Assembly (NCBI RefSeq): GCF_018502385.1
Contig: NZ_CP075523.1
Location: 62,001 to 126,000, forward strand
DNA length: 64,000 bases
Direction of reading: 5' to 3'
Source of the DNA: Synechococcus sp. LA31
GTDB taxonomy: Bacteria; Cyanobacteriota; Cyanobacteriia; PCC-6307; Cyanobiaceae
A program made the translations under genes and the position numbers. Shown here one piece after another: positions 1,426 to 53,300 of this stretch. The stretch's first letter is position 1, and every line of letters begins with the position of its first letter. The notes beneath the pieces were generated by a model, which saw nothing but the letters and a program-made list of their open reading frames with translations, had not been told where the DNA came from and did not search any database.

Positions 1426-1469
1426 ACAATCCTGGTTGGTGTCATCACAATGACGCCAACCAGGATTGT
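1426..1469. repeat. 20-bp inverted repeat in divergent intergenic region
   Basis: Two 20-bp arms (1426-1445 and 1450-1469) match at 19 of 20 positions around a 4-base loop CACA. The single mismatch becomes a G-U pair in RNA, so a transcript would fold into an unbroken 20-bp hairpin. No T-run follows on either strand. It ends three bases before the ATG at 1473 and lies 81 bases upstream of the ATG at 1344. It could be an operator shared by both genes or a 5' UTR structure of the plus-strand gene. Confidence 0.8.
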
Positions 1470-2489: not shown

Positions 2490-3080
2490 TCAAGGGGCCT
2501 TGCACTGCAGGAGTTGGCCGTTCCAGTTGATCTGCGTGCTGCCCTGGTGCTCCCAGAGCTCCACACCCGCAGCGCTGTAGCGAGCGCCGCTACCCGAAGG
2601 CGCGATCGGAACCACCAGGGTCTCGTTCCCAATCGCGAGAACAACGCTGGGGGGATCTGCTTGGTTCAGGAACACCACCGATACAGGCGCCGTGATTGGG
2701 CCAGAGCACTGAAGCGGTTTGCGCCAGAACACTTGCAAGGTGAACTCCCCTTCTCTGGTGAAGCGGATGCCATCGGCGTTGTCAGCATGTTGGTGGCTGA
2801 TCCCGTGTTGATTGGCCGCGAAACTGAACGTTCCATGTGGCTGCATCGACACTGTTATGTCTCCATCGCGTTCCCTGAACGCACACGGCCCTCGCTGAAT
2901 CGGTAGCGTGTCATCGTGGCGTCTCAGGAGGCAGTAGGCCTCTAGCCCACGCCCCTCGGCCGCCCGATGGCCTTTCATCGCCTGGCCGTAGATGAAGCCG
3001 ATGATGTAGCCCTGGCCCCAGTAAAGGGCGGCTACGGCGGCACCGATGCAGGCTGCCGCCGTGGCCAGTGGTTTTACCAC
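2490..3080 (-). CDS. Membrane-anchored hypothetical protein
   Basis: A 196-residue protein from GTG 3080, whose start overlaps the stop of the upstream gene (3074-3412) by seven bases, suggesting translational coupling. The N-terminal 30 residues are hydrophobic and could be an uncleaved anchor. The remainder contains C-x-L-L-R and G-P-C-A-F cysteines and a beta-rich C-terminal half with W-N-G-Q-L-L-Q-C near the end. An upstream ATG at 3122 is in frame but would extend the overlap to 49 bases. I recognise no family. With its neighbour it appears to form a two-gene operon of exported proteins. Confidence 0.5.
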   Translation of the reverse strand: MVKPLATAAACIGAAVAALYWGQGYIIGFIYGQAMKGHRAAEGRGLEAYCLLRRHDDTLPIQRGPCAFRERDGDITVSMQPHGTFSFAANQHGISHQHADNADGIRFTREGEFTLQVFWRKPLQCSGPITAPVSVVFLNQADPPSVVLAIGNETLVVPIAPSGSGARYSAAGVELWEHQGSTQINWNGQLLQCKAP

Positions 3081-3412
3081 TGCTTGAACTCGTTCACCGT
3101 GCCGTCGTAGTTCACATTGCAATAGCCCTTGGCTGTTTTGCCGTCCACGGCCCAGTTGAAGCTGAGGCCGCTGGCCTTCACGTCTTTCATGGTCATCGCG
3201 CCGGAATCGAGGCTTTGCTTCAGCGTGGCGCCGAGGCTGATCCGCGCTTCAGCCATGCTCACGTCAAATTGCTCCACCACGCGCAATTTGCATGCGTTGC
3301 CTAGACGCTGGCTGACAGCGTCGAGTTTGTTGGCCAGGGCTGGGGCACTGATCACGGTGACTAGTCCGGCCGTTAGGCCAAGGCTGATCAGATGAGGTAG
3401 GGGGCGTGTCAT
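3074..3412 (-). CDS. Small secreted hypothetical protein
   Basis: A 112-residue protein starting at ATG 3412 with a clean signal peptide: T-R-P-L-P followed by a hydrophobic core and a cleavage-like A-P-A-L-A/N-K site around residue 28. The mature part holds two cysteines (in N-A-C-K-L and G-Y-C-N-V). No domain is recognised. It is the first gene of a tight pair with the membrane protein downstream. The frame allows an ATG six codons earlier (3430), which would push the charged residues away from the hydrophobic core. Confidence 0.55.
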   Translation of the reverse strand: MTRPLPHLISLGLTAGLVTVISAPALANKLDAVSQRLGNACKLRVVEQFDVSMAEARISLGATLKQSLDSGAMTMKDVKASGLSFNWAVDGKTAKGYCNVNYDGTVNEFKQW

Positions 3413-3426
3413 GGCGAAGTCGGAGC

Positions 3427-3642
3427 TCACCGCATTCTGAACATTGGAAAACCTTTTTCACCCCATGGATCGAGTCTTGCGAGTTGGGATCTGAGACCAA
3501 GCGGTTGTGGTGTCGTTGTGTTGCTCGCAGTCATCACGGCCAGCGCCAGCTTCCGGTCCGGGTGCAGATGTCGCCAGTGGGACTGCCTGGCCAGGGCCTC
3601 TCGCAGGCTGATTTTGATCAGAGCAAAATGCTCTCGGGTCAT
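3427..3642 (-). CDS. Possible small protein, unrecognised
   Basis: A 71-codon frame sits between the terminator of the psbC fragment and the small secreted protein, ending 14 bases before that gene's start. The sequence is basic, with a plausible amphipathic stretch (E-H-F-A-L-I-K-I-S-L-R-E-A-L-A-R) near its N-terminus. Nothing identifies a function, and it could be a chance open frame in GC-rich DNA. Confidence 0.25.
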   Translation of the reverse strand: MTREHFALIKISLREALARQSHWRHLHPDRKLALAVMTASNTTTPQPLGLRSQLARLDPWGEKGFPMFRMR

Positions 3643-3652
3643 CGGTGCAACC

Positions 3653-3677
3653 AAAAATCCCCGCCTTGCGGCGAGGG
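3653..3677 (-). terminator. Copy of the psbC terminator
   Basis: On the minus strand CCCTCGCC-GCAA-GGCGGGG folds into a stem followed by ATTTTT. It matches the terminator behind the full psbC gene (9495-9523) and lies at the same distance from the stop codon, so it was duplicated with the coding fragment. Confidence 0.7.
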
Positions 3678-3705
3678 TTTGAGGACGAACGAGTGATCGA
3701 GGCGA

Positions 3706-3974
3706 TCAGTCGAGGACGGGCATGGTCAGAGTGGGCTCGGCCTGACGGACGATGCCTTTCTCGAAGCCAGCAGCAGCGACGCGGGCGCGGCCGGCGTGCC
3801 AGAGGTGGCCCACCAGGAAGAAGAAGGCAAGCATGAATTGAGCCGCAGCCAGCCACTGGCGGATGTTCACGAATTTCACCGAGTTGGGCTCGGTGATGAT
3901 GCCGCCCACCGAGTTCAGAGAGGCGTTGGGTGCGTGGGTCATGTCTTCAGCCGCACGGCGCACTTGCCAGGGCT
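3706..3974 (-). pseudogene. Truncated 3' copy of psbC (CP43 C-terminus)
   Basis: The minus strand encodes about 89 residues closely matching the end of the full PsbC in this window, from P-W-Q-V-R-R-A-A-E to L-D at the stop. Shared signatures include [13 protein letters not shown] and [14 protein letters not shown]. Several substitutions exist (Y to D in A-A-E-x-M, N to K in N-S-V-x-F, D-R-K to V-R-Q). Similarity stops abruptly near 3974; upstream DNA does not resemble psbC and no start is usable for a functional antenna protein. Similarity also covers the downstream terminator. The five upstream helices and the Mn-ligand loop of CP43 are absent, so I call it a pseudogene. Confidence 0.85.
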
Positions 3975-4160
3975 CAGCGGCCGTGATGTCAACAGACCTG
4001 GCTGCAAACAGATGGCTTTTGGGGCCACCATCTCATAGCTGCACGGGATTCTGCCGCCTGCTGCTCCTCAGGCGTGGTGGTAGCCCATTGATTGTGGATG
4101 CCTGCACTGCCGGTGTGTTCTGGATGCGCCTGCTGCAGCCAAAGGCTTGGCAGATGTGGC

Positions 4161-4409
4161 TCAGTCGAGTGCAAACACGTTGATCCCAGGGGCAACCTCA
4201 CGCATCTCGCGGATCTCCTCGTCGATGGCCGCAAGGATCTCCTGGCTGTAGTCGGGGTGTTGCTTGAGCGTACGCACGATGTTTCGCACGCTGTCCACTG
4301 ACAAACCACCATGCAATACCTGCTGATGAATCTGTTCGCGGAACTGCTGCAGAGCCAGCTCTTCTTGTGGTGATAGGGGGCGCTTTGGCGCGGGATGGTT
4401 GATCTCCAT
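4161..4409 (-). CDS. Small acidic hypothetical protein
   Basis: An 82-residue protein from ATG 4409 (an ATG 14 codons upstream at 4451 is also in frame). The sequence is predicted largely helical, with alternating charged segments such as L-S-P-Q-E-E-L-A-L-Q-Q-F-R and I-D-E-E-I-R-E-M-R-E. No signal peptide or known motif is seen. The neighbouring genes are a psbC fragment and an ATPase, which gives no functional hint. Codon use looks normal for a coding gene. Confidence 0.5.
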   Translation of the reverse strand: MEINHPAPKRPLSPQEELALQQFREQIHQQVLHGGLSVDSVRNIVRTLKQHPDYSQEILAAIDEEIREMREVAPGINVFALD

Positions 4410-4716
4410 GTTCTCGCGAGCAGACCTCGCTTGAACCGTAGAGAGGTTCAAGTGATCTTCAAGGTTTCAGGGCCTTGGGTTTACGAAACAAACCATGCTG
4501 GAGCGGTAGGGGCGTGGCTTGCGCGGGGCGCCGCGCCGTGGCATCAGCGCAGCCGCTGAAGCACTGCCGTGCCAGCAGCGCCACGTCCTGAAGGAGCAGC
4601 GGCACCGGTGTCTTAACCGAAGCCGTCAAGCCAAAGTGGCGATGTTGGTAGCAGCGTTTGCGTGGGTCCAAGCTCCAGGCTTCCCTATCCAAGAGGTTGC
4701 GCTGCGCATTAAGCAC
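4410..4716. other. About 300 bases without a convincing gene
   Basis: Between the small acidic protein and the AAA ATPase only overlapping short frames of fewer than 90 codons are open on both strands, with no signal peptide, domain or start context to favour either. No clear terminator or repeat was seen. Confidence 0.4.
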
Positions 4717-5838
4717 TCACACCTTGTTTGATTCCGGCCAGCGCCAGCTGCCTCGCTCCAGCGTTGTTTGTGCTTGCACCTGGGTGGCCCCCAGCTCTCG
4801 TTCGAGTTGGAGATGCCGGCATTGGGGCTGTTGGGCCAGGGCGTTGATCAGCGCTGGGGCATGGGCGATCACCCACACCTGCGTGCGCTCGGCCGCTGCG
4901 TGAATCAATCGGGCTAAAGGGGCCAAGAGCTCTGGGTGCAGGCTGCTTTCCGGTTCGTTCAAGACCAACAGAGGCGGTAGCCGCGGGCTGAAGAGCGCCA
5001 CGGTGAGGAGGAGATAACGAAGTGTTCCATCGGAAAGTTCCGCTGCCTCCAGCGGCCGCAGTAGCCCTGGCTGATGCACATGCAGGCGAAACGATCCGCC
5101 ATCGGTTTGAACACTGAGATGACAGCCCGGGAAGGCATCATCCATCGCCTGTTGCAGACCGTTGCCATCCCCGTTTTCAAGAATTGTCTGCACAGCGGCT
5201 GGTAGATCACCACCATCGCCGCTGAGGGCAAAGCAACGGGTGCCCACCCGCGGCTGTCTGGCTGGCGCCTCAGGATCGGTGCGGAAGCTGTCGTAGAAGC
5301 GCCAACTGAGTATCTGCTCACGTAGCAGCATCACCTCCGGTTGTTGATCAGGATCAAAGCCGCGTTGAAACAGTGATTGATCGGGATGGTGTTGAGGCCC
5401 TGAGCTGCTGAGCACCGCCCTGGGGTGGAATCCCTCGCCCGCCCAGATCCATTCCCCTTTGAGCTGGGGATCAAGGGCAAAGGCGCTCTGTCGTTCCTGT
5501 GGGTAACCCAGTTCCACGGCATAGGAGAAGGGCTCGGCCGCAAACCCCAGCCGCAGCCGCACCGCCTGTTGGCGCGGACCTCCTTGAACGGGCTGCTCGC
5601 CTTGGCGCATCGCCCGGCTGAGGCGCTCCGGTCCAGCCCACATCACGGCTGGCAGGCCTCCCTCCTGGGCCAACGCTCCCACCATCGTTCCTCGAGCTGC
5701 GGCTGTGAGCAATCGCAGGGCCCGGTAGAGGTTCGATTTGCCACTGCCGTTGGCGCCGGTGACCAGCGTGAGCTGGCCGAAGGGCACGACCACGTTCTGC
5801 AGAGAGCGATAGCCGCTCACGGCGAGACGGTGAATCAT
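4717..5838 (-). CDS. AAA ATPase of the RecF/OLD-like type
   Basis: A 373-residue predicted ATPase. The N-terminus has the I-x-G-Y-R-S-L layout typical of SMC/RecF-type AAA_21 proteins, followed by Walker A G-A-N-G-S-G-K-S at residues 28-35. Near the C-terminus lies a Walker B-like L-L-V-L-N-E-P-E-S-S-L-H-P (about residues 295-307), with E-P-E replacing the more usual D-E-P, then V-W-V-I-A-H-A-P as the H-loop. The central 150 residues fit a coiled or lid insertion. Such stand-alone ATPases are often linked to DNA processing or phage defence when paired with a nuclease. No TOPRIM or nuclease gene sits beside this one, so the role is open. Confidence 0.75.
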   Translation of the reverse strand: MIHRLAVSGYRSLQNVVVPFGQLTLVTGANGSGKSNLYRALRLLTAAARGTMVGALAQEGGLPAVMWAGPERLSRAMRQGEQPVQGGPRQQAVRLRLGFAAEPFSYAVELGYPQERQSAFALDPQLKGEWIWAGEGFHPRAVLSSSGPQHHPDQSLFQRGFDPDQQPEVMLLREQILSWRFYDSFRTDPEAPARQPRVGTRCFALSGDGGDLPAAVQTILENGDGNGLQQAMDDAFPGCHLSVQTDGGSFRLHVHQPGLLRPLEAAELSDGTLRYLLLTVALFSPRLPPLLVLNEPESSLHPELLAPLARLIHAAAERTQVWVIAHAPALINALAQQPQCRHLQLERELGATQVQAQTTLERGSWRWPESNKV

Positions 5839-5902
5839 CGCGTTTGTTCAGCCTGCAGCCTCATCATTCCCTTCTGCTCACACGTTGTCCTCTGGCTGCA
5901 GG

Positions 5903-6010
5903 ATCGATCGCAAGGGCCATGCAAGCCACCACTTCCTCGTGCCTGAGATTGTGCGCGCATTGGGCATCAGCAAGGTAGCCGTTGACCAGCTGCGCCGTTT
6001 GAAAGATTGA
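5903..6010 (+). pseudogene. Possible 3' remnant of a small gene
   Basis: A 35-codon stretch ending in TGA at 6008-6010 reads I-D-R-K-G-H-A-S-H-H-F-L-V-P-E-I-V then R-A-L-G-I-S-K-V-A-V-D-Q-L. It has the look of a helix-turn-helix-like C-terminus, but there is no usable start upstream. It may be the tail of a lost gene. Evidence is limited to residue composition. Confidence 0.25.
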
Positions 6011-6025
6011 ATCATTGATTGCTGA

Positions 6026-6053
6026 GCAGGGAATGCTCAAAGCATTCCCCTGC
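6026..6053. terminator. Hairpin downstream of autotransporter gene
   Basis: Arms GCAGGGAATGC and GCATTCCCCTGC fold with one bulged base around TCAAA. It lies just after the stop of the minus-strand autotransporter and just after the plus-strand remnant at 5903-6010, so it may terminate either direction. The T-run is weak. Confidence 0.55.
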
Positions 6054-6058
6054 AGCTC

Positions 6059-9000
6059 TCACCAGCGCAGCTTGAGCCCCCCGCCATAGCTGAGCTCGTT
6101 GCCATTGCTCCAGAAGGCACCACCCACGCCGGCATAGAGGGAGAGGGCTTCAGACGTTTCGTATTCCAGCGAGAGGCCCACATCAAGCGCATTAGCCCCG
6201 CGGTTCTGACCGAGCACATCAACAGAGCCGAGGGCCGGCACGTTTGCGAAGGAAGCGGTGAGCTGGTGCTCCTCGTTGGAATCACCGTTGAAGTCGTACT
6301 CGTAGCCGAGGGAGAGGCGCGGGATCAGGCGTGATGTTTTGCCAGTGACGATTGGCGTCTCGATCTGGAAGCCGATGCCGTAGATGAGGGAATCGGCGGT
6401 GTGTGAGTTGAGGGCCAGGTTGAGGGAGTCAGCGCCGGTTTCCGAGAACGCTCCTTGGTTGTGGAGGGCGTAGGAGAAGAAGGTGTTGGGCTTGATGCGC
6501 ACAGCGGAGCGGCTGGTTTTATCGGAGGAGAGCACCCAGTCGTATTCGGCTGCCAGAGCTGCTGTGAAACCATTGCCGCTCCAGTTGGCATTGGCGGTGC
6601 GGTTGAGCCCCCCGAAGTTGATGTTGCGGTCTGATTCGTACTGGAGGTTCATGTAACCGGCCAGCGCCGTGAACTTCCAGCTCTCGGATGGGCGATAGAT
6701 GCCCCATGCAGCACCGGAGTAGGTGGAGGATTCGATGCGAACGTCGGCGTATTCGTAGTTGTAGAGATTGGCACGCCCGTAGCCAAAGGCAGCACCAGCA
6801 CTCCAGTTGCGATTGAAGTCGTACTGGAGGCCGTAGGAGCTGGAGAAGATGTTGTAGTCGAGGGAAGCGAGATCGTTGGTGCCGTTGAGGGTGGCTTGGG
6901 TGTTGGTGCCATCGATCAGCAACGACCAGGGCGTGAGCCTTTGAACGGTGCGCGGCTTGCAATCGGGCTGGAGCTGCTGGGCGCCATCGGCACGGGGCTC
7001 GACGTTGCCATCAACAGTGCAGACCTCTTCTTCTGCAATGAAGGGAATGGCCTTGGTGCCAGAGGTGAGGGCGAGTGTGTTGGCACGAAACTGCTCCATC
7101 GCTTCCAGGGCCACTGATTGCATGGAGGCGTAGGGCTCAGCGGAGATGGAGTGGAGGGCTTGGTTGAGCTGTTGCCGGGTGGGAACAGCAAACAGCGCAG
7201 CGATCACATTGGCGAAGTCAGGCGTGACGAGCGCTGCACTGGTTTGATTGGTGGTGTAGCCGGTTGTGCCGATTGCCTTGCCACCCGTTACACCAGATGT
7301 GACAGCTGCACTGACAGAAGCCCAGCCTGCATCGAGTGCCTTGGCAGTAGCCACTGTGTTGTTGTTGTTGCCAGAAGCCCCTGTGCCAGGCTTGTTCTGC
7401 TGCTGACAAGCCGATGCAGAACCACCGTTGCTGGTGCAGGTGTTGGTGTTGGAGTTGGGATTGCCGGATGAAGCTGTTGTAATTGCCCCACCAGTCTTAT
7501 TGACGTTGGCAATGGTTTCCTTTCCGGGCAGCTTGGTGGTATTCGGATTTAGTGGTTGACCGGTTGTGGGATCATTCTTTACCCAGGCGAATTGCAGCTT
7601 CGTGCAATTCTTTTGAATATTGGGATCCGAGCTGGTGCAGGTGGCGTAGTAGTTGGGATCGATTTTGCCAAAGAGTTTGTCTGTTTCGCGCGCGAAGGTG
7701 AAACCAGATGAGCCAATAACATTAAGACTGGTTGTCAGGCCAATTCCCTCTCCAGTTGAATCGGCACCGGTAACGTCAATAGCGGTATAGATCTTGTTGG
7801 CAGAGATGGGTGCACCTTGATAGGAGCTGATGTTCAGCTTGCCTCCCAGGAGTGCAACACGGTTAGGGCCTGTGATCTTCAGCAGGTCAGAGTCTGATCC
7901 GTTGACATCGATATTGAGGCTGGCGCTGGGATTTGTTATGCCCTGGAGGTAGTTGCCATCCACGGTGAGCGTGCCGATGTCATCGTTGCCCGGGGATACA
8001 TTGCCTTCATTGATGACATCTCCAAAAATAGTTCCTGTACCCTGTAGTGTCCCCCCAGTTTCTACCGTGGTCTCTGATGTGATGGATCCGATGATTGCGA
8101 GTCTCCCACCTCTAATGATTGTTGCTCCTGTATATGTATTTGTTCCGCTGAGAGCCTGAAGGTTGCTGCCAGTTTTGATGATTTTGCCTTTCCCTGAGGA
8201 GTCTATGATCGAGCCTGTAAATACTGCCGGGCTCGATGATGCGCTGCCAAGGGATAGACTATTGCCTTCTAGGTTCACGGTAGCGGTCCCGTGGGTCGAC
8301 CTTAGTGAGGCAATTGTTTCGTCGCCGCCTAGGATGGCTAGCTTGCTGTCGGGAGAAAAAAGGTATACATCTGAGGAGTCGGGTATGGCACCATAGCGGC
8401 TCACTAAAGTACTATCTCCGTCGATAATGGTGATTCCTGTATAGGTATTTCTGCCGCTAATCTCGATGTAGTTGCCGTTCGGTCTGAAGGTGATGTTTCC
8501 TGATGCGCCTGACGCGTCGCTAAAAATACCTGAAAACTTAACGGGAAATCCTTTGTTGTTGATGGCATTGTCGGTTGAGCTGCTTAACGTAAAATCTTGG
8601 TTATATGTCTGATTGTCTTGGTCGACAGTAAGCGTTCCTCCTTCGAACTGGGGCAGTAATCTGCCTGAAGACAGGTTGCTACTTACATTGTTATTGGTGC
8701 CATTAATGTTTCCCGCTGGATTGATCGGAGCAGTCGTCGGTGTAGGTGGAGCGGGATTAGGCACCGGTGATCCAAATGCCCATGGGAAAACGTTGCTATT
8801 GGATGTAAATGCTGCAAAACCATCGGAACTGCATTGGGATTTGTCTAGAGATGAGCAAACACCGTATACAGTGGTTTGACCTGCTTTGTAGGCGAAGTTT
8901 ACAATCTCTGTATCTCCGTATTGCGCACTCCAGCTATCCCTAAAGTCTTTGGCGAGCCACTCATCTCCCCACCAGGGAGAGTTTTCGTATCTTGGATCCT

Positions 9001-9181
9001 GTTGTGCAGTATTCCAGGGTTGCTTGTTAGGCCCGTAGCCAACTGTGTAGGTTTTGTTGTTGACGGTTATTATATTGGGGTTCGCTGATGCGGCTTGTGG
9101 GTTGCCTAGGTAGCAGAGCGCCAATGGCACAAGGGTTGTGCCCATGAGTGAGTGCAGTGAGACTCTTATGGCGTTGCTCAA
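6059..9181 (-). CDS. Autotransporter with beta-barrel domain (type V secretion)
   Basis: A 1040-residue protein with a signal peptide (hydrophobic core, A-A-S-A near residue 34). The passenger contains repeats of the autotransporter-associated beta-strand type, such as I-S-G-R-N-T-Y-T-G-I-T-I-I-D-G and A-L-S-G-T-N-T-Y-T-G-A-T-I-I-R-G, and a G-G-T-L-Q-G-T-G-T-I block, all indicating a parallel beta-helix. A low-complexity N/G/T/S region (about residues 560-630) carries paired cysteines. The last 280 residues alternate Y/F/W strands in the manner of an outer-membrane autotransporter barrel and end in G-L-K-L-R-W, the aromatic terminus recognised by the Bam machinery. No separate partner is nearby. 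The passenger half appears lower in GC than the barrel half, suggesting acquisition or recombination. Confidence 0.85.
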   Translation of the reverse strand: MSNAIRVSLHSLMGTTLVPLALCYLGNPQAASANPNIITVNNKTYTVGYGPNKQPWNTAQQDPRYENSPWWGDEWLAKDFRDSWSAQYGDTEIVNFAYKAGQTTVYGVCSSLDKSQCSSDGFAAFTSNSNVFPWAFGSPVPNPAPPTPTTAPINPAGNINGTNNNVSSNLSSGRLLPQFEGGTLTVDQDNQTYNQDFTLSSSTDNAINNKGFPVKFSGIFSDASGASGNITFRPNGNYIEISGRNTYTGITIIDGDSTLVSRYGAIPDSSDVYLFSPDSKLAILGGDETIASLRSTHGTATVNLEGNSLSLGSASSSPAVFTGSIIDSSGKGKIIKTGSNLQALSGTNTYTGATIIRGGRLAIIGSITSETTVETGGTLQGTGTIFGDVINEGNVSPGNDDIGTLTVDGNYLQGITNPSASLNIDVNGSDSDLLKITGPNRVALLGGKLNISSYQGAPISANKIYTAIDVTGADSTGEGIGLTTSLNVIGSSGFTFARETDKLFGKIDPNYYATCTSSDPNIQKNCTKLQFAWVKNDPTTGQPLNPNTTKLPGKETIANVNKTGGAITTASSGNPNSNTNTCTSNGGSASACQQQNKPGTGASGNNNNTVATAKALDAGWASVSAAVTSGVTGGKAIGTTGYTTNQTSAALVTPDFANVIAALFAVPTRQQLNQALHSISAEPYASMQSVALEAMEQFRANTLALTSGTKAIPFIAEEEVCTVDGNVEPRADGAQQLQPDCKPRTVQRLTPWSLLIDGTNTQATLNGTNDLASLDYNIFSSSYGLQYDFNRNWSAGAAFGYGRANLYNYEYADVRIESSTYSGAAWGIYRPSESWKFTALAGYMNLQYESDRNINFGGLNRTANANWSGNGFTAALAAEYDWVLSSDKTSRSAVRIKPNTFFSYALHNQGAFSETGADSLNLALNSHTADSLIYGIGFQIETPIVTGKTSRLIPRLSLGYEYDFNGDSNEEHQLTASFANVPALGSVDVLGQNRGANALDVGLSLEYETSEALSLYAGVGGAFWSNGNELSYGGGLKLRW

Positions 9182-9494
9182 GACTTGATCTTTTTGAATT
9201 TTTCTATTTTATTCTGTGACAGACTGCCTGTCATTATTTCTTTGGCACTTCAAGAACTGGCTCTTTTTCGGGGCTAAGGGTCAGCAGGATTTGGGGGTTG
9301 CGGCCTGCAGGAATGCACTGGAGCCCACGCTTTTATGAAATCTCCGCAGAAGATCGGAATCCGACACTAGCGAGTAGACGCTGTGTCCATCACCTCGGCT
9401 TGCACGTGTTCTCTCTCGCCTTTTCTGATTGTTTCTGGTGAGTACTGTTTCGGATTCTTTCTTCGCTACAGCTTGATAACTACCCAATTCCAGA
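9182..9494. other. Intergenic region upstream of the autotransporter
   Basis: About 310 bases, AT-richer than the surroundings, presumably holding the promoter of the minus-strand autotransporter. A 68-codon minus-strand frame here is low in plausibility. I see no repeat or RNA gene. Confidence 0.4.
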
Positions 9495-9523
9495 TAAAAA
9501 AGCCCCCGCCTTGCGGCGAGGGC
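9495..9523 (-). terminator. Rho-independent terminator of psbDC
   Basis: On the minus strand, CCCTCGCCGC-AA-GGCGGGGG is followed by CTTTTTTATC, a strong GC stem plus T-run 25 bases beyond the psbC stop. A diverged copy sits at 3653-3677. Confidence 0.85.
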
Positions 9524-9547
9524 TGAGGGTCGTTCGCTGATCTGAGA

Positions 9548-10936
9548 TCAGTCGAGGTCGGGCATGGCCAGAGTGGGCTCGGCCTTGCGGTCGATGCCTT
9601 TCTCGAAGCCAGCAGCAGCAGCGCGGGCGCGGCCGGCGTGCCACAGGTGACCCACCAGGAAGAAGAAGGCGAGCACGAACTGAGTCGCAGCTAGCCACTG
9701 GCGGATGTTTACGAAGTTCACCGAGTTGGGCTCGGTGATGATGCCGCCCACCGAGTTGATGGAGGCGTTGGGGGCGTGGGTCATGTATTCAGCCGCTCGG
9801 CGCACTTGCCAGGGCTGAATGTCGTTCTGGAGCTTGTCGAGGCTCAGGCCGTTGGGGCCGCGCAGGGGCTCCAGCCAGGGACCACGGAAGTCCCAGAAGC
9901 GCATGGTTTCACCACCAAAGATGATCTCGCCCGTAGGGGAGCGCATCAGGTACTTACCCAGACCGGTGGGGCCCATGGCTGAACCGATATTGGCGCCAAG
10001 GCGCTGGTCACGCACCAGGAAGGTGAAGCTCTGAGCCTGGGAGGCTTCGGCGTTGGTGGGGCCGTAGAACTCCGAGGGGTAGGCGGTGTTGTTGAACCAG
10101 ATGTAAGCCGAGGCGATGAAGCTCATGAAGCTCAAGGCGCCCAGGCTGTAGCTCAGGTAGGCCTCACCGTTCCAGATGAAGGCGCGGCGCACCCAGCCGA
10201 AGGGCTTGGTGATCACGTGCCAGATGCCACCGAAAATGCAGGTGAGTCCAAGCCAGATGTGGCCACCGATGATGTCTTCCATCGAGTTCACACCGATGAT
10301 CCAGCCCTCGCCGCCGAAGGGGGCGCGGAACAGATAACCGAAGATCACACCAGGATCAAGGGTGGGGTTGGTGATCAGGCGCACGTCGCCGCCACCAGGA
10401 GCCCAGGTGTCGTAGACGCCACCGAAGAACATGGCCTTGAACACCAGCAGCAGGCAGCCCACACCCAGAAGGATGAGGTGGTAGCCAATGATGTTGGTCA
10501 TCTGGTTTTTATCGCGCCAATCCTGCGAGAAGAAGGCGGAATAGTTTTCCAGAATTTCGGGTCCACGCAGTGCGTGGTACAGACCGCCGAGGCCGAGCAC
10601 GGCGGAGCTGATCAGGTGCAGCACACCCACCACGAAGAAGGGGTAGAGGTCAACAACCTCACCACCTGGGCCCACGCCATAGCCAAGGGTGGCCACGTGG
10701 GGGAACAGGATCAGGCCCTGCTCATACATCGGCTTATCGAAGGTGAAGTGGCTCACCTCGAACAGCATCATTGCGCCAGCCCAGAACACCATCAAACCGG
10801 CGTGGGCGACGTGGGCTCCCAGCAGGCGACCCGACAGGTTGATCAGACGAGCATTCCCCGACCACCAGGCATAGCCCGTGGAGTCGAGGTCCTTCCCGCC
10901 GATCCCGGAGAGAGAAGGATTAGAGAGCGTTACCAC
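9548..10936 (-). CDS. psbC: Photosystem II CP43 chlorophyll protein
   Basis: A 462-residue inner antenna protein of photosystem II in the thylakoid membrane. It carries six transmembrane segments and the large lumenal loop with G-G-E-T-M-R-F-W-D, whose Glu and Arg contact the Mn4CaO5 cluster in known structures. Histidine-rich helices (A-H-V-A-H-A-G, Y-H-L-I-L) supply chlorophyll ligands. I chose the GTG at 10936, giving V-T-L-S-N-P, because this is the conserved psbC start and gives a 17-base overlap with the end of psbD. The longer open frame to 11014 lies inside psbD. It is co-transcribed with psbD and ends at a strong terminator. Confidence 0.97.
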
Positions 10937-11975
10937 GGGGCAGAACCTCTTCAGGGAAGACGAAGTTTTCGTGCGGCTGGTCAGCCGGTGCCATCCAGGC
11001 ACGCAGACCTTCATTCAGAAGAATGTTCTTCGTGTAGAAGGTCTCGAATTCAGGATCCTCAGCAGCGCGGATTTCCTGCGACACGAAGTCGTAGGCACGC
11101 AGGTTGAGGGCCAGTCCGATGATGCCGATGCTGCTGGTCCACAGACCCATCACCGGCACAAACAGCATGAAGAAGTGCAGCCAACGCTTGTTGGAGAACG
11201 CGATCCCGAAGATCTGGCTCCAGAAGCGGTTGGCGGTGACCATCGAATAGGTCTCTTCTTCCTGGGTGGGCTCAAACGCCTTGAAGGTGTTGGCCTGCTC
11301 ACCGTCTTCAAACAGGGTGTTCTCCACCGTGGCGCCGTGGATGGCACACAGCAGAGCGCCACCGAGGATGCCGGCCACGCCCATCATGTGGAAGGGGTTC
11401 AGCGTCCAGTTGTGGAAGCCCTGCAGGAAGAGCAGGAAGCGGAAGATGGCGGCCACGCCAAAGCTGGGTGCAAAGAACCAGCTGCTCTGGCCGAGGGGGT
11501 ACATCAGGAAAACACTGACGAACACCGCAATCGGGCCGGAGAAGGCGATGGCGTTGTAAGGGCGGATGCCCACCAGGCGGGCGATCTCGAACTGACGCAG
11601 CATGAAGCCGATCAGGGAGAAGGCGCCGTGCAGGGCCACGAAGGTCCACAGACCGCCGAGCTGGCACCAGCGCACGAAGTCGCCCTGGGCTTCAGGGCCC
11701 CAGAGCAAGAGAAGGGAATGGCCCATGGCATCAGCCGGGCTGCTCACCGCAGCGGTGAGGAAGTTGCAGCCCTCCAAATAGGAGCTGGCAATGCCGTGGG
11801 TGTACCAGGAGGTGACAAAGGTGGTGCCGGTCAGCCAGCCACCCAGCGCCAGGTAGGCGGTGGGGAACAGGAGCAGACCCGACCACCCGACAAAAACGAA
11901 GCGGTCGCGCTTGAGCCAGTCATCGAGGACGTCAAACCATCCCCGCTGCGGCGCGCGCCCTACAGCGATCGTCAT
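10920..11975 (-). CDS. psbD: Photosystem II D2 reaction-centre protein
   Basis: A 351-residue protein, the standard D2 length, starting [10 protein letters not shown] at ATG 11975 and ending [10 protein letters not shown]2 pairs with D1 to bind P680, pheophytin, QA and the non-haem iron. Conserved segments visible include R-F-V-F-V-G-W-S-G, the [14 protein letters not shown] region, and [15 protein letters not shown], which contains an iron-ligand histidine. The frame extends 29 codons upstream without a recognisable extension, so the family start is preferred. It is first in the psbD-psbC operon and divergent from ycf4. Most picocyanobacteria also hold a second psbD elsewhere, which cannot be checked here. 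Confidence 0.98.
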
Positions 11976-12160
11976 GGGTGGAAAAAACCGCGGGCTGTGG
12001 GTTACCGGGCGATGGTAACAACGTTGAACCGCAGCGCGAGGCGGGTTTTGGCGGGCTGACACGGCCCGTCACCATTGCGTTTTGGGTATTTGTGCTCAGG
12101 CCCTGGCCAGCCTGGGCGCAAGGCGCGCCAAGATGGCAGGCCACCGGTTGTAACGCCTGT
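11976..12160. promoter_or_regulatory. Divergent promoter region psbD / ycf4
   Basis: A 185-bp intergenic region separates the starts of psbD (minus) and ycf4 (plus), so both promoters should lie here. I could not identify convincing -35/-10 boxes by eye. The inference rests on gene arrangement. Confidence 0.5.
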
Positions 12161-44354: not shown

Positions 44355-47300
44355 ATGGCCAGTTCATTCCACGTTAATTACGCCGACTTACAACGGATTC
44401 TTGAGAATATCAAGATTGCCGAGCGCGAATCTGCCGGTGAGAACCTGCTCGACATCATTACAGAGGTAGCCACTGGCTCCCCTGCGATCACGGGAACAAC
44501 CTTTGTCAATGCGGCGAATCTTCCCCTGGGCCTGCGCCATGTTGATGGTAGCTACAACCAGCTGATTCCTGGATCGCCAGACGGGGTTCTCACGGGCGCG
44601 GCTGATCAATCATTTGCTCGCCTGGTTGATCCCAGCTACATCAGCGAGACCGGAAGCCCCAGCCTGGATCTCAATCCTGATCCCGCCAGTTTGCTTGAGG
44701 TCACGAACAGCAGCTATGACCCAGAGTCTCCCAACCCTCAGAACGATCCGGGCATTCATCCCAACAGTGTCGTTGATGCATCTGTTCGCACCATTTCGAA
44801 TCTGATCGTTGATCAGACCATCAGCAACCCTGCTGCTATCGCATCCGCTCTACGTTTGGCGGGTCACGAGGATCCTGATGGCCAGGCGCTCATCCTGCAT
44901 GAGCAGGCGCGTGTGCTCCTTGATCCTTTGGCCGCCGAGGCGGACCAGGCTGATGCGCGAACGGCATTAACGAATGCCCTGGCTGAAACCGGTGTCACGA
45001 TCACGTCGGATGGCTCCATTGTTGTGGAGCATCGCAGCGCTGATATCGGCCTTTCGCCGGGTAACAGCAGCTGGATGACGATTTTTGGTCAGTTCTTCGA
45101 CCACGGACTTGACCTGCTTGCCAAGGGTGGCCAGGGAACGGTGTACATCCCGCTTCAACCTGATGACCCTTTGTATGTGGAGGGCAGTTCTTCCAATTTC
45201 ATGGCTCTCACTCGAGCCTCTGGCAACCCTGGCACGAATCTGATCACACCCTGGATTGATCAGAACCAGACCTATACCTCTCATCCCTCGCATCAGGTCT
45301 TCCTGAGGGAGTATCAGCGCATTGATCGTGTCACTGGTGCTCTGCTGACCGATCCTGCTCAGCCTGAGTGGGAGGCCGGTCTCACCGTGGCCACAGGCCG
45401 CTTGCTGAACGGTGCAGACGGTGGTGTTGCGACTTGGGCTGACGTGAAGGCACAGGCACTCACCTATCTCGGCATTGCTCTGGATGACCGGGATGTGCTC
45501 AAGATCCCCCAGGTTCTGACCGATCCTTACGGTCGCTTCATTGCGGGCCAGAACGGCTATGCCCAGTTGCTCGCTGTGGATGCACAGGGTCAGCCGATCA
45601 CTGTGGAAGGCACTGCTGAGGGTGTGATTCCATCCGCGCTAAATGTGAGCCGGATTGCCCAAGCTTTCCTGGATGACATCAATCGGGCCGCTGTTCCCGT
45701 GATCGTTGATGGACAGCTGCTGCCGGATGCCGACATGGCTGTTGGCCTCTCTGACGCGGTGCCGGATGCTCGGGGTGGCTTCACGACGTACGACAACGAA
45801 CTACTGGATGCTCACTATGTGACCGGCGATGGTCGTGGTAACGAAAATATCGCCCTCACGGCCATCCATAGTGTTTTTCATGGCGAGCATAACCGTGTGC
45901 TTGAGGCCAACAAGCTCACGATTCTGCGCAGCGGTGACCTGGAGGGTATCAATGAGTGGTTGCGTATCCCCCTCGCTGACGCTGTTGAACTCACGTCCGC
46001 TCAGGCCAGTGATGCTGACCTGACTGCTTTCGCTGCTGGGCTGCAGTGGGATGGTGAACGCCTGTTCCAGGCGGCAAAATTCTCCACCGAGATGCAGTAT
46101 CAGCATATCGTTTTTGAGGAATTTGCTCGTCGAATCCAGCCAAATATTGCTCCATTCGTGTTTACCAACTCGGCAGATCTTGATGCTCGTATTGTTGCCG
46201 AGTTCGCCCACGCGGTCTACCGCTTTGGTCACTCCCAGCTGGGTGATGGAGTCGCCAGACTGGAAGCGGATCTGGCTTCTAGCGATCTCGGCCTGATTCA
46301 ATCCTTTCTCAACCCGCTGGAGTTTGCCAATAGCGGCCTCGATGCCGAGGCGGCTACAGGTGCCATTGCCCGCGGGATCACGCGTGTGGTGGATCAAGAG
46401 ATCGATGAGTTCATCGTCGAAGCGCTGCGCAACAATCTGCTAGGGGCGCCGCTTGACTTGGCCAGTCTCAACTTGGCCCGCGGACGTGAACTGGGGATCC
46501 CGTCACTGAATCAGACCCGGGCTCAGCTCTATGCGATGACCGGGGCTGTTCAGCTCAAGCCCTACACCGGCTGGACGGTTGATCCAAATCAAGCTGATTC
46601 CCATGGTTTCTTCCAACATCTGAAGAATCCGATGTCGGTGGTGAATCTCATCGCTGCCTATGGCACACACACCACTATCACAGAGGCTACAAGCGTTGAG
46701 GCCAAGCGTCGCGCCGCGATGTCCATCGTGTTCAACACGTCGCTGGATGGTCAAGTTCCCCCTCCTGATGCTCTGGATTTCCTGAGGGGTACGGGTGCGT
46801 ATGCCGACCAGGAGACGGGCATCAATGATGTGGACCTCTGGATCGGGGGTCTGGCAGAGCAGGTGAATGAATTCGGCGGCCAGCTGGGAGAAACCTTCAA
46901 CGCAGTCTTCCAATACCAGATGGAGCAGCTGCAGAACGGAGACCGCTTCTATTACCTGAGTCGTACGCAGGGGATGAACCTACTGACCCAGTTGGAGGCC
47001 ACAACCTTCTCCGATCTGGTGATGCGGAACTCGGATCTTGGCGATCCCCATGCGACCCACCTGTCTGCGCACATCATGGGTGTGCCGGATCTCATTTTAG
47101 AGCTCGATCTGAATACGGCTCAAGCCAATTACAGCGGTGATCAAGCCCTTGATGATTTGGTTGGAAGCCAAAATACAGCTGAGCAACGCGGCTCTCTAGA
47201 CCCCACGGCGTCCACGCTCTTCGATTTTCTCCTGGGGGGTGCGGCCACGAGCAAGGTTGTCCGTCAGTACGGATCTGTAGATCTTGACGGTAACGGTTTT

Positions 47301-50300
47301 GTGGATGGCAACGTCTTGCGTTTCACCGGCGGTGAACATGTTGTTCTGGGCGGAACAGAGGGGAATGATGCCATCTATGGCGATAAGGGCATCGATACGC
47401 TATGGGGCGATGGCGGTGATGACTATCTCAATGCCGGCATGGAGTCTGATCAGGTCTTTGGCGGCGACGGCGATGACATTATTATTGATCCCTTCGGTGA
47501 TGATTTTCTCCGTGGTGAAAATGGAGATGACGTGATCGTCAATGGTGCTGGCCTTGATGTTGATTTTGGCGGTGCGGGTCAAGACGCGATGTTTGCCGTC
47601 GTTGATAGCACTGAAATGTTTGCCGGTGAGGATAACGACTTTATGCGTGGCGGTTCAGCTCCTGATCTCATGATGGGAGGTGAGGGCGACGACTGGATGG
47701 AGGGTGGCGAAGGCTTTGATTACATGGCTGGCGAAAATTCGGAGCTGTTCTTTAACAGCCCCATTGTTGGTCATGACATCATGAATGGCCAAGGTAACGA
47801 TACTGATTATGATGGTGAAAATGGCGATGATATTATGGTTCAGGGCGTAGGCATTCAGCGCAATAATGGTATGAACGGCTTTGACTGGGCTATTCATAAG
47901 GGCGATCCCGTTGCGGCTGATACGGACCTTACGCCGCAGATCCCCGGTCTAGTTGAAATCCCAGATGCTGCCTTGGCGGTGATACTGCGTGACCGTTTTG
48001 ATTCTGTTGAAGGCTTATCGGGCTGGAAGTATGACGACTATCTGAGGGGATCTGTTCGTTCCATTGACCAGAATCCCTGGTTCCAGAACCAGCTCACACA
48101 GGCTGGTGTCGACAGGATTCGTGGCCTGCGCGCTGTGCTTGGTGGTGAAGATCTTGCTGATCCAGATGCTGTTGCCTTCGGTGACCCCAATATCGATGGG
48201 AATTCGGACGGCCAGATCTTCCTCGGCGGTGATGGCAGTGACACCATTATGGGTGGAGTTGGCGATGATCTCATTGATGGTGATGCCTGGCTCAATGTGC
48301 GTATAGAGGGGACTCGTAAAGACGGTTCTTATTTTACGGTCGACAGCCTTAGCGATTTGTTCGTTGATCTCGTTTCAGGGGCCATTGATCCTGGTGAGAT
48401 GCATGCTGTGCGTGAGATTCTGTATGACGATCGCGCTGACGGCTCTAACCCCGATGATGTCAATCTCGATGTCGCTGTCTTCCAGGACCTGAGGGACAAT
48501 TACGACATTGCTTTTGACGCAGACGGTGCTGTCATTGTGTCGCATCTGAATGTTTCCGCGGGCCTGCAGAGTGACGGGACGGATCGGCTTCGCAATATTG
48601 AGGTCGCACGTTTCGCCGATCAGGATCTGCGGCTGGTTAATGATCCTGCACTCTCTTCGGGTCTGCTGGCAACCACGGAGCTGTCGACAACTGGCATTTT
48701 CGGTTTCTTCGGTGCCGCTAACCGCGTTGGCCTTGCCGCTCCTGCCCTTTTTGACGCGAATAACGTCACACCTGGTAATCCGCTAGGGCTTGTTGATCCA
48801 AGCTCAGTTTCTGTTTCCTTCTTTGATGCCGCTGATTCTGCCACTGCGCTGCCGCTCTCGGCTGCCGGTGAGCTGGTGTTGGCCGCCACGCCCGGCCGGC
48901 AGCTGTCGATGACAGCCAGCTATATCGATGCAGCTGGTTTCACTAATACCTTTGAGGCACCCATCTTCAATGCAATTGTTGGCACTGCTTCTGCCAATAC
49001 GCTGACGGGTACGGCTGATCTGGATTATATCTTTGGTGGTGCAGGAGCTGATATTCTGCTCGGTAATGGTGGTGATGACTATCTCTCTGGTGGCGTTGGT
49101 TCCGATCTGCTCAATGGCGGTGACGGTGTTGACCTTGCCAACTTTGCCGGAGTGGCCACTAGTCTTTTCAACGCGGCTAATCCTCCAGCACAGGCAGTTG
49201 TGGATGCCAGATTCGACCTGAATGGCGTCAACCTTACGGTCTCAACTCTCACCGGCGGTCTTGACACGCTTGTATCGATTGAACGCCTGCGCTTCAGTGA
49301 TGGCGTCTTTGATCTTGTCGCTGGTGCCACCAACGCTGCTGATGATCTGATTTATAGCGGTGAGCAGCGTGCGTTGCTGTTTGGTGGTGGTGGTGATGAC
49401 CATCTGCGTGGCGGAGCTGACGATGATGTTTTCACCTACACCGCAGCCGGCACGATTGTCGAGAACGCCAGTAGCGGCGGCGGCCGCGATTCTGTTGACG
49501 GTGGTGCTAACCGTGAGCTTGGTGATCGCCTGGTGATTCAAGGTGATAACACCACAGAGACGTTCCGTGTGATTGCCGTGGCAGGGGATGTCAATGCATC
49601 ACACCGTGCTGATTTAGCGGCGGCAGGTTTTGCGGCCATCGCTGACACTACCGAGATCGTGATTCTTCGGGGTACCGGTAATCTGTCTGCTATTGCGCCA
49701 CTGACGACCGATAACTTTGCCGTCATCGCTGAAGTGATAGAGATTGAAGAGTTAACGATTAATGTGAGTGGTGCTGGCCGAACTGGTACCCAACGTGTTC
49801 AGGTGATTGGTGACTTTAATCCCACCAGCCTGCGCACCAACACCATCACGATCAGTAGTGATGGCGCTGGCGTTGATGTTGATGTGACCAGCCTTGAATC
49901 CGATCACCGTGTTGTGCTTGATGCCGGCACGATCCTTGGTCAGCGCCCTCAGGATGTTGTTCAGACAGCTGCGAACGAAATCATGAAAGCTGATCCCATG
50001 ACGCCTGATCAGAACAATGAACTTGCTGATGGCAACGTGTCTGCATCGCTCACCTTGCGAGACGCCCAGGATCTTCTTGATCTTGTGCGTGGGATTGCCC
50101 CAGAGCGTCTCGATCCCGAGAATGCCGATGCGGTTGGTGTTCGTGATCTGGCTGGCGCTGAGAACAATCGCGCCAATGCCTCCTTCGGTGCAGCGAACGA
50201 ACCGTTCATTCGTCTCACTGAAGCGCGATTTGGCGCTGTTGACCCCGCCTCTGGCACCGCTGAGATCAACCCGATCTTCGCTGGGCTCGACCCCCGCCTG

Positions 50301-53300
50301 ATTTCCAACAGTGTGGCGACCCAGCAGCCGCAGACTCCCCCCAGCAGACAGGCGAACCTGTTCTGGATGTCCTTTGCCCAGTATTTCGACCACGGCCTCG
50401 ACTTCGTTGTGAAGGGTGGCAATGGGACCATTCCCATCGGCGGCGTCGGTTCTGGTGGTGCCGATAACCCTGCAGATCTCACGCGGGCAACGATCACCGG
50501 TTGGGATGCTGATGGCCCGCAGCACCTCAACCAGACATCCCCCTTCGTTGATCAAAACCAGGCTTATGGCTCCACTGCCCTGGTTGGTCAATTCCTGCGT
50601 GAATCCGACGGCGCGCGTGGTTTGGGATCTCATTTGATGTCAGGTGGCGATGATCCTTCCGCTCCCGGATTCAAGTTGCTGCCGACACTGCGCACACTGC
50701 TGGACCACCACATCGCAGCTCAGACTATTTTCACTGGCACCAAGCTTGGTGACTTGACCCTGACGGAGTACTACCCCGCTCTGATCAACGCTGACACCTC
50801 TGACTACGACTCGGCTGTCATCGCCGAGCTCAACCGTGATTTTCTCGGATCGGGCTACTCCCTGCTTGTTGATCTCAACCCATTTGTCTCGCCTCTCGAG
50901 CATGTTGTCGCTGGTGACGGCAGGCCGAACGAGAATGTCGCCCTCTCTTCGATTCACTCGATCTGGGCGCGTAATCACAACTATCACGTTGACCAACTAA
51001 CGGAGCTCTACTCAGCGGCTGGTCTTGATGTTACGCCGGAGGAGGTCTTCCAGGCAGCCAAAACTATCAACGAAACGGAGTATCAGCGCATCATCTTTAC
51101 TGAGTTTGCCGAGATTCTGTTGGGGAGTGCTGGGATACGTGGTTCTGGCGAGCACGGCTTCGATGATTATCAACCGGCTACGGACGCCCGCATTAGCCAC
51201 GAGTTTGCAGCAATGGCCTATCGCGTGGGCCACACTATGATTGCTGACGATTTCACGATCCTTGATGCTGACGGGCAGCCAGTGCGCGTGCCGCTGGTGG
51301 ATCTTTTCCTCAACCCCACCAATGAGGCGGGGGCCTTCACGTTTGACCCTGATGGTCCAGGCTCTGCGGCGCCCCTCACCGGCGATGCCGCGCTGAGTGT
51401 CTTGGCCTCTAGGGGTTACACCCCCGTGCCTGGCTATGAGCAGCTTGGCGTTGCCCGCATCCTCGGAGGTATGGCTCTGCAGCCTGCTGAGGAGGTTGAT
51501 CCGCAGGTGGTCGATGCCGTTCGCAACGATTTGGTGCGGGTGCGTGCTGATCTGGCTGCCTTCAATATCGCCAGGGGCTGGGATCTTGGCCTCGGCACGC
51601 TCAATCAGGTCAAGTCCGGCTTGCTTGCTTCCTCTAATCCTTATGTGCAGGAAGCCATCAGCTTTGTGGGTCTTGAGAGCATGACTCCCTACGCCAGCTG
51701 GGAGGATTTCCAGCTCCGTAATGGTCTTGCTGATGCGGAGCTGGAGCGGTTGCGTTCCGCCTATCCCGACCTTGAGATTCTGGCCACCGACGTGGAGGCC
51801 TTCCGTCAGTTCAATCCTGATGTACACCTGTTGATCCAGGACGACGGCAGTGCCTTGGTTTCGGGTATTGATCGCGTTGATGCCTGGGTGGGCGGTCTGG
51901 CTGAGCAGAAATTCGAGGATTCACTGCTGGGCTCCACCTTTTGGACCATCATTCATGAACAACTGGATCGTCTGCAGGAGGGTGATCGCTTCTACTACCT
52001 CTCTAGGGTCGATGACCTCGACTTTTATGAGGCCTGGGCCAAGGAACAGAGCTTTGCCGACATTGTTGAGCGCAATACTGGCCTCACAGGTCTACCCAAA
52101 GATATTTTTGCAGTCTCTGATTCCGAAGTATTAGTTGGATTGCCTGCTGCGGATGGGGCTCCTGCAGACGGTGGCGCTCCTGCTCCTGTCGATCCTGACC
52201 CCGCCGATGGGCTTTTGACTGACGCTGAATCCGATGTTGTGGCTAAGGCTTTGCATCTCGGGCTGAGTTTGCACAAGCTTCCGGATTTCACCGGCGATCA
52301 ATCGAATGAGCTCGTGCTGCGCCCCTTCGGTTCACAGGCTGAGCGCTCCGCTCAGTTCTACCTGATGCTCACGGCTGAGTCGTTGCGCGATGCCAGCATC
52401 GACACCCTGGATGTCACCTTCGACCTTGGTGACGACTTCCTCAATGTCTTTGAGCTCAGTGGGGAGCAGATCTTCTTCTCCGATGACCTTGCTGTGCAGC
52501 GTCGCGTCCAGCTTGATGGCAGCACCCTTCGTTTTGAAGGTGCTGGTCTGGGCGCCATGGGCGCTGGCCAGGGCATCTCGGAAAAAGCTCCGATTGCCGT
52601 GATCTCTCTCACCCCGCGCGATGATCTTGACCAGCAGATCCTTGCTGAGCGGCTGGCCGATCGCTACGGCTTTACGAACTCTGAATCCTGGCAGCAATCG
52701 CTGCAGTTCAGTGTTGCTGCCAATGTTCATGAGATCATGTTCTCTGACCTCATGTCGCTCGGTGATCTCGGCGGCGAGGCGGCCTTGCTCACCGATGAGC
52801 TTCAGCTGATTGCCCGTGCTGCGCAGGTGGATCTGTTGACGGATGATGTCTTCGCCTTGGGGACTGAGCGCCAGGTAATCAAGCCGGGTGAAGGAGGATT
52901 CACCAATCTGATTCGTTCAGGAGACACTCTAGAGCGCACCACACAGTGGCGTAATGAAGGTGAATTTACCCTTCAGGATCTGTCGCTCACTGACCTCAGC
53001 CAGGCTGGCGTTGCCACCTCTAAGAGCTGGATTGCAGGTGGTTCAGACGCCTTGGCTGTTGGTGCTACAGCCGAGATCACCACAGAGATCAATGTGTACG
53101 GTGATGCTGGATCGGTTCTTGACAGTGCAGCCCTCGGCTTCCAAATTGACGCGCTCGGTGGCTATCACTGGGATACGGCTGCCATGTCTGCATTCCAGCA
53201 GAAAAATCTGGTCACCTACCAGGCCGACCTCAACTATGACGGTCGCGTCAGCATGAAAGACTTGGCCTTCCTGAATGCAGGTGTCAGCCGTGGTTACAGC

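Follow-up and report, generated by a model that had tools for sequence, protein, structure and literature searches.

Why does the 3' end of psbC, together with its terminator, occur a second time only 5.8 kb from the intact gene in Synechococcus sp. LA31? We address this question in a window of 64,000 nucleotides, the whole stretch of DNA that was analysed. The copy, hereafter the tail, matches its parent in the same orientation (window 3653-3974 against 9498-9816), with 285 of 322 bases identical (89%, 3 gaps, BLASTN E 4e-116), both being on the minus strand. It comprises the final 89 psbC codons, the stop codon and the terminator hairpin. A first-pass annotation had thus described it correctly as a truncated, decaying 3'-end duplicate with terminator, from the match of about 320 bases to the distance from the parent. 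Pfam recognizes the tail as PSII (profile positions 410-493 of 500). Its reading frame (3706-3974) is open and has an in-frame stop shortly upstream; there is no plausible start codon except an internal GTG at 3963, no ribosome site and no upstream coding sequence. By BLASTN and translation, psbC homology ends at a truncation junction (3975-4000, minus strand), and no clear donor end is seen at 3975. On the other side, the copied rho-independent terminator (CCTCGCCGCAAGGCGGGG followed by a T run; 3659-3676, minus strand) is intact, and the same hairpin, identical, is present in the tail of another genome of the genus, G003. Rfam gives no match at the tail.

The sequences just past the terminator, all on the minus strand, have counterparts in other genomes. 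A flank (3609-3658) is 80% identical to the stretch before the AAA gene in G271, and a short remnant (3546-3597) resembles the 3' end of AAA-ATPase genes (81-83% over 52 bp to those of G271 and G208), with a weak match also to window 4791-4842. A larger block (2723-3767), which spans the tail end, the terminator, the flank, the gene g3074 and the 5' part of the MliC gene, is about 98% identical to a block located 193 kb from psbC in G003. The gene g3074 was considered as the original neighbour of psbC on the basis of Cyanobium and Aphanothece and was rejected, as it follows cobQ there.

The parent (ORF 9548-11014, minus strand; Pfam PSII E 6e-132; likely true start near 10936, overlapping psbD) is the sole complete psbC in the single-contig 2.75-Mb genome. 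Tail and parent are the only two DNA matches in a whole-genome search, and the other psbC-like matches besides the tail are a distant 33% paralogue and the end of psbD2. A psbD-psbC operon remnant elsewhere in the genome was considered and discarded: the only other close psbC-like piece (at 2498021) is not a psbC2 but the stretch with which the second psbD copy overlaps psbC at its end.

Comparison with 30 intact psbC 3' ends reveals how the tail has evolved. It carries about 9-14 non-synonymous differences, whereas the intact genes show 1-5 relative to the parent and have 0-5 private amino-acid changes. The count of synonymous and non-synonymous changes that the first-pass annotation had proposed, made here as a three-way comparison with G009, assigns about 6 synonymous and about 10 non-synonymous private changes to the tail, as opposed to 5.5 and 1.5 on the parent branch. 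A psbC-like dN/dS of 0.05 is rejected for the tail (P 1.6e-5) and neutrality is not (P 0.13). The changes include Y to D, N to K and two D to V at residues invariant across all 30 intact sequences. Synonymous distances to relatives are equal for the tail and the parent gene. The tail has thus lost its 5' part and start and is under relaxed selection; given that it has no upstream coding sequence and that one complete psbC lies elsewhere, it is an ordinary-looking pseudogene, a once-constrained psbC end that later decayed. This bears out the purifying history followed by decay that had been suggested for it. The accompanying suggestion of gene conversion with the parent finds no support here, and the dS between tail and parent (0.20) is no smaller than the distances between species of the genus (0.16 between this genome and G015). 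A tree places the tail inside its own genus, which includes Vulcanococcus limneticus LL and Synechococcus sp. GreenBA-s, with weak support. The remnant itself has no evident function. Truncated and relaxed, it resembles any decaying bacterial pseudogene, but differs in that the information resides in its position and company rather than in the remnant.

The company of the tail becomes clear from the psbC-downstream DNA of 64 genomes, this one included. A convergent maf gene lies 0.1-3.5 kb from psbC in 37 of the 64 loci, at about 95-150 bp in several genera; the distance here is 28.9 kb. The two genes are convergent in nine or so genera. In other loci, the gap is occupied by a YcgJ gene, by MNT-HEPN genes immediately after psbC (G003, G208, G068), by an autotransporter or by other genes. 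Because the arrangement can be empty and its content differs between relatives, the psbC-to-maf gap is a slot of variable content, bordered by two convergent core genes that stay in place. Here, the order downstream of psbC is an autotransporter, an AAA ATPase, a small gene, the psbC tail, the AAA 3' remnant, g3074, an MliC-domain gene, g1962, g1467 and a YcgJ gene; beyond the window start, the slot continues with MlaD, sulfotransferases, a TPR/glycosyltransferase protein and a YadA-like autotransporter, and ends at maf. The YadA-like gene encodes a trimeric autotransporter of 2399 aa (46079-53278 of the genome), with the sulfotransferases nearby.

Three genes on the minus strand separate psbC from its tail. 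The classical autotransporter (6059-9181; Pfam Autotransporter E 5e-38) is placed similarly in G002, G219, G271, G197 and G267, and in G003 a fragment 99.4% identical to its 3' end (6035-6196) lies directly against the psbC tail. The AAA ATPase (AAA_21/AAA_15; 4717-5838) shares 92% DNA identity with G271 and 89% with G208, and the small gene g4161 (4161-4451) has 42-44% homologs in two genomes. No recombinase, integrase, transposase or relaxase family was found by Pfam among the larger ORFs of the slot, and there are no phage or plasmid genes nearby. It is worth noting that the AAA ATPase resembles the HEC-01A, AriA and Mad3 ATPases of candidate defence systems, with none of their known partner genes identified, and that a nucleotidyltransferase/HEPN pair (MntA-HepT-like toxin-antitoxin) adjoins psbC downstream in three genera (L027 7051-7802, L093 10508-11232 and the start of the psbC downstream region in L099). 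An 84-bp stretch between the AAA gene and g4161 (4544-4627) is repeated at 88% at 1551987-1552071 of the genome.

The borders of recent exchange can be located by comparison with G219, a genome of another genus. The last 13 psbC codons, the terminator and the downstream spacer (9263-9585, minus strand), a tract of about 99% identity, differ from G219 by 1 indel and 2 substitutions only, whereas the adjoining psbC stretch 9587-9760 shows about 20 differences. The identity step at 9586, one case, marks a recombination breakpoint within the last 13 psbC codons. Two further tracts are 97.9% (5275-8011) and 99.5% (1-1466) identical to G219, the latter ending at an inverted repeat. Since the identity step in psbC accompanies tracts of 98-100% identity, DNA has moved between the two genera with a boundary inside the psbC 3' end. 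This exchange is younger than the tail, with its dS of 0.20 to the parent, and hence is not the event from which the tail originated; it nevertheless shows the psbC 3' end acting as a boundary of recombination. The inverted repeat is of 19 bp (CAATCCTGGTTGG...CCAACCAGGATTG, window 1427-1468) and lies exactly where the 99.5% identity stops.

The tail block has probably moved as well, because it is about 98% identical to G003, as opposed to 88% for the psbDC region. Within this block, the 20-codon tail of G003 matches the intact psbC here at 59 of 60 positions and the tail here at about 90%, with the adjoining flank at about 98% (excess P 0.002), a mismatch that could stem from uneven divergence or from a further exchange at the stop codon.

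The strongest single argument on the nature of the psbC tail comes from the opposite border. A truncated maf 3' end lies inside the slot, in the same orientation as the full gene and 92% identical to it over 185 bp. The 3' ends of both border genes point into the slot, and both have left 3' tails inside it. Because the maf tail mirrors it, the psbC tail is best regarded as part of a process acting on the slot and not as a stray duplication. What the first-pass annotation had not seen is this pairing, in which the tails of two core genes mark a psbC-maf recombination slot that has expanded. G219 has this same maf fragment too, and G197 retains a remnant of maf.

The same annotation had advised a search for second psbC remnants in relatives, and this search succeeded in two further genomes. 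A substantial second psbC 3' end is present in at least 3 of 256 psbC-bearing genomes of the family (this one, G003 and G197), a lower bound from a scan that scored two candidates per genome, with a deeper check in 16 genomes. In G003, of the same genus, the last 20 psbC codons remain with the terminator and some 1 kb of the downstream block found here, joined 24 bp past the stop of an autotransporter 3' fragment with about 2 bp in common at the junction. The psbC piece of G197, a genome of another genus, has an internal deletion; it starts about 20 bp behind the stop codon of an autotransporter and continues, past a decayed terminator, into the start of a nucleotidyltransferase gene. In G208, a congener of G197, this gene stands immediately after psbC (72% over 295 bp). 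Since the same gene follows the tail of one and the psbC of the other, G208 and G197 constitute an empty/filled pair. The psbC break positions differ between the genomes with tails. Of the 7 loci that have an autotransporter close to psbC, 3 are accompanied by scars, as against none of the other 57 (Fisher P 8e-4), a count that ignores relatedness and in which the G003 scar lies elsewhere in its genome and shares one block with the scar here. The tail is absent in G015 and other relatives. Two other candidates were rejected as psbC scars: the second match in G176 is a 30-bp terminator hairpin only, and the terminator-only piece in G271 has an upstream spacer that is not psbC-like, such hairpins being common.

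Based on the above data, we propose that the tail is a recombination scar, in which gene cassettes entered by recombination at the 3' ends of the border genes, leaving truncated tails behind, a reading to which we assign a probability of about two in three. Incoming DNA from related picocyanobacteria, carrying a psbC 3' end and its downstream genes, would recombine homologously in the resident psbC 3' end and, on the other side of the slot, in the maf 3' end. At its other end it would be joined to the resident DNA, inside the old psbC end or adjacent to it, either as a shortened circle that enters by a single crossover or through homology-facilitated illegitimate recombination (HFIR). The result would be a complete psbC, followed by new genes (the autotransporter, the AAA ATPase and others) and then by an additional tail that lacks its 5' part and would subsequently decay. 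We infer that uptake of free DNA was the vehicle, and likewise which end of the slot is the resident one. ComEC and DprA are encoded in this genome, and there are cyanobacteria with documented natural competence (PMC7690421). When shortened circles integrate by single crossover in E. coli, they generate duplications of 109-950 bp of the anchoring gene end (PMC3240628), and hotspots without mobile elements, with recombination in the border core genes, are commoner in transformable bacteria (2017, PMC5635113). We have counted against this scar reading that the tail here follows g4161 and not the autotransporter, that the source of the tail is weakly resolved in the tree, and that 3975 has no clear donor end.

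One alternative is that the psbC 3' end was simply duplicated in tandem within the genome, that insertion and decay followed, and that foreign DNA had no part in making the tail. The anatomy alone would fit, and so would the position of the tail among the psbC genes of its own genus. Nevertheless, the tail is as distant from its parent at synonymous sites as species are from each other, yet G015 and other relatives have no tail, and the mirrored maf tail and the tail in another genus would each demand the same coincidence again. We therefore consider such a duplication unlikely and infer that an exchange process made the tail. A complete gene with a displaced truncated 3' end is also the classical outcome of site-specific integration of a mobile element at the psbC 3' end, which restores psbC and displaces the old tail; here, the break points vary between genomes, a second tail lies at the maf boundary and the tested ORFs of the slot encode no integrase, transposase or relaxase family, so that little credence is left for this route.

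We consider it just as improbable that the tail is kept for use, whether as a terminator for upstream genes or as an expressed C-terminal CP43 peptide. The hairpin is intact both here and in G003 and the reading frame is still open, but the peptide would have to be made without a start or ribosome site and tolerate changes at invariant residues amid an excess of non-synonymous substitutions, while hairpins of the psbC-terminator type are common in the genomes compared; reuse of this one as a terminator is possible. An assembly artefact has nothing to recommend it beyond the repetition itself and can practically be dismissed: an identity of 89% is unlike a collapsed or duplicated read, the genome is a single contig and the same block recurs in an independent genome. 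A search for a misassembly or for a psbC-like gene that is complete across 3974, either of which would have overturned the first description of the tail, found neither, and comparable scars occur in independent assemblies.

The scar that we propose is of an already known kind. The psbC-maf slot resembles the horizontal-transfer hotspots that lack mobile elements (PMC5635113) in its fixed core borders, the fast turnover of its variable content, the absence of integrase or transposase among the tested ORFs and, in one case, recombination in a border gene. The hotspot model invokes a double recombination that is scarless, whereas this slot keeps the truncated 3' ends of both borders. In the latter respect, it resembles the products of single crossover or HFIR (PMC3240628), as a complete psbC and a truncated duplicate of its end flank foreign DNA; those products were obtained by laboratory conjugation in E. 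coli, while the tail is read from sequence after later rearrangement. The literature searched contains no psbC pseudogene and no description of the psbC-maf slot. A 3'-end duplication beside acquired genes is also seen in tycheposons and similar genomic islands at tRNA 3' ends, which employ a tyrosine recombinase together with a fixed attachment site. The slot differs from them in its variable break points and in having no recombinase in the tested ORFs.

A broader proposal, which we regard as speculative and rather doubtful, is that the psbC-maf slot is a standing site of cross-genus exchange for surface-protein and defence-like cassettes in freshwater picocyanobacteria, where border-gene tails travel or stay as homology arms that ease the next exchange. 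If so, core photosynthesis genes would act as anchoring arms through which genera of picocyanobacteria trade surface proteins without a mobile element; the left-over tails would be a countable footprint of exchange events, and truncated border-gene 3' ends could reveal and date recombination slots in other genomes.

Lastly, three minor features of the locus and of the genome deserve mention. The autotransporter 3' end (window 6059-6107) is repeated elsewhere near the slot, here and in G219, and might be a recombination handle. Rfam reports IsrR, the antisense RNA of isiA, at 10333-10519 on the plus strand, antisense to psbC (154 bits, far over threshold); the match probably reflects the homology between psbC and isiA, and an antisense RNA to psbC is possible at this position. 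The second psbD copy (about 2497056-2498115 of the genome) shares 99% DNA identity with the operon psbD (window 10917-11976) and keeps the overlap with the psbC start, a similarity that suggests ongoing gene conversion between the two psbD copies.
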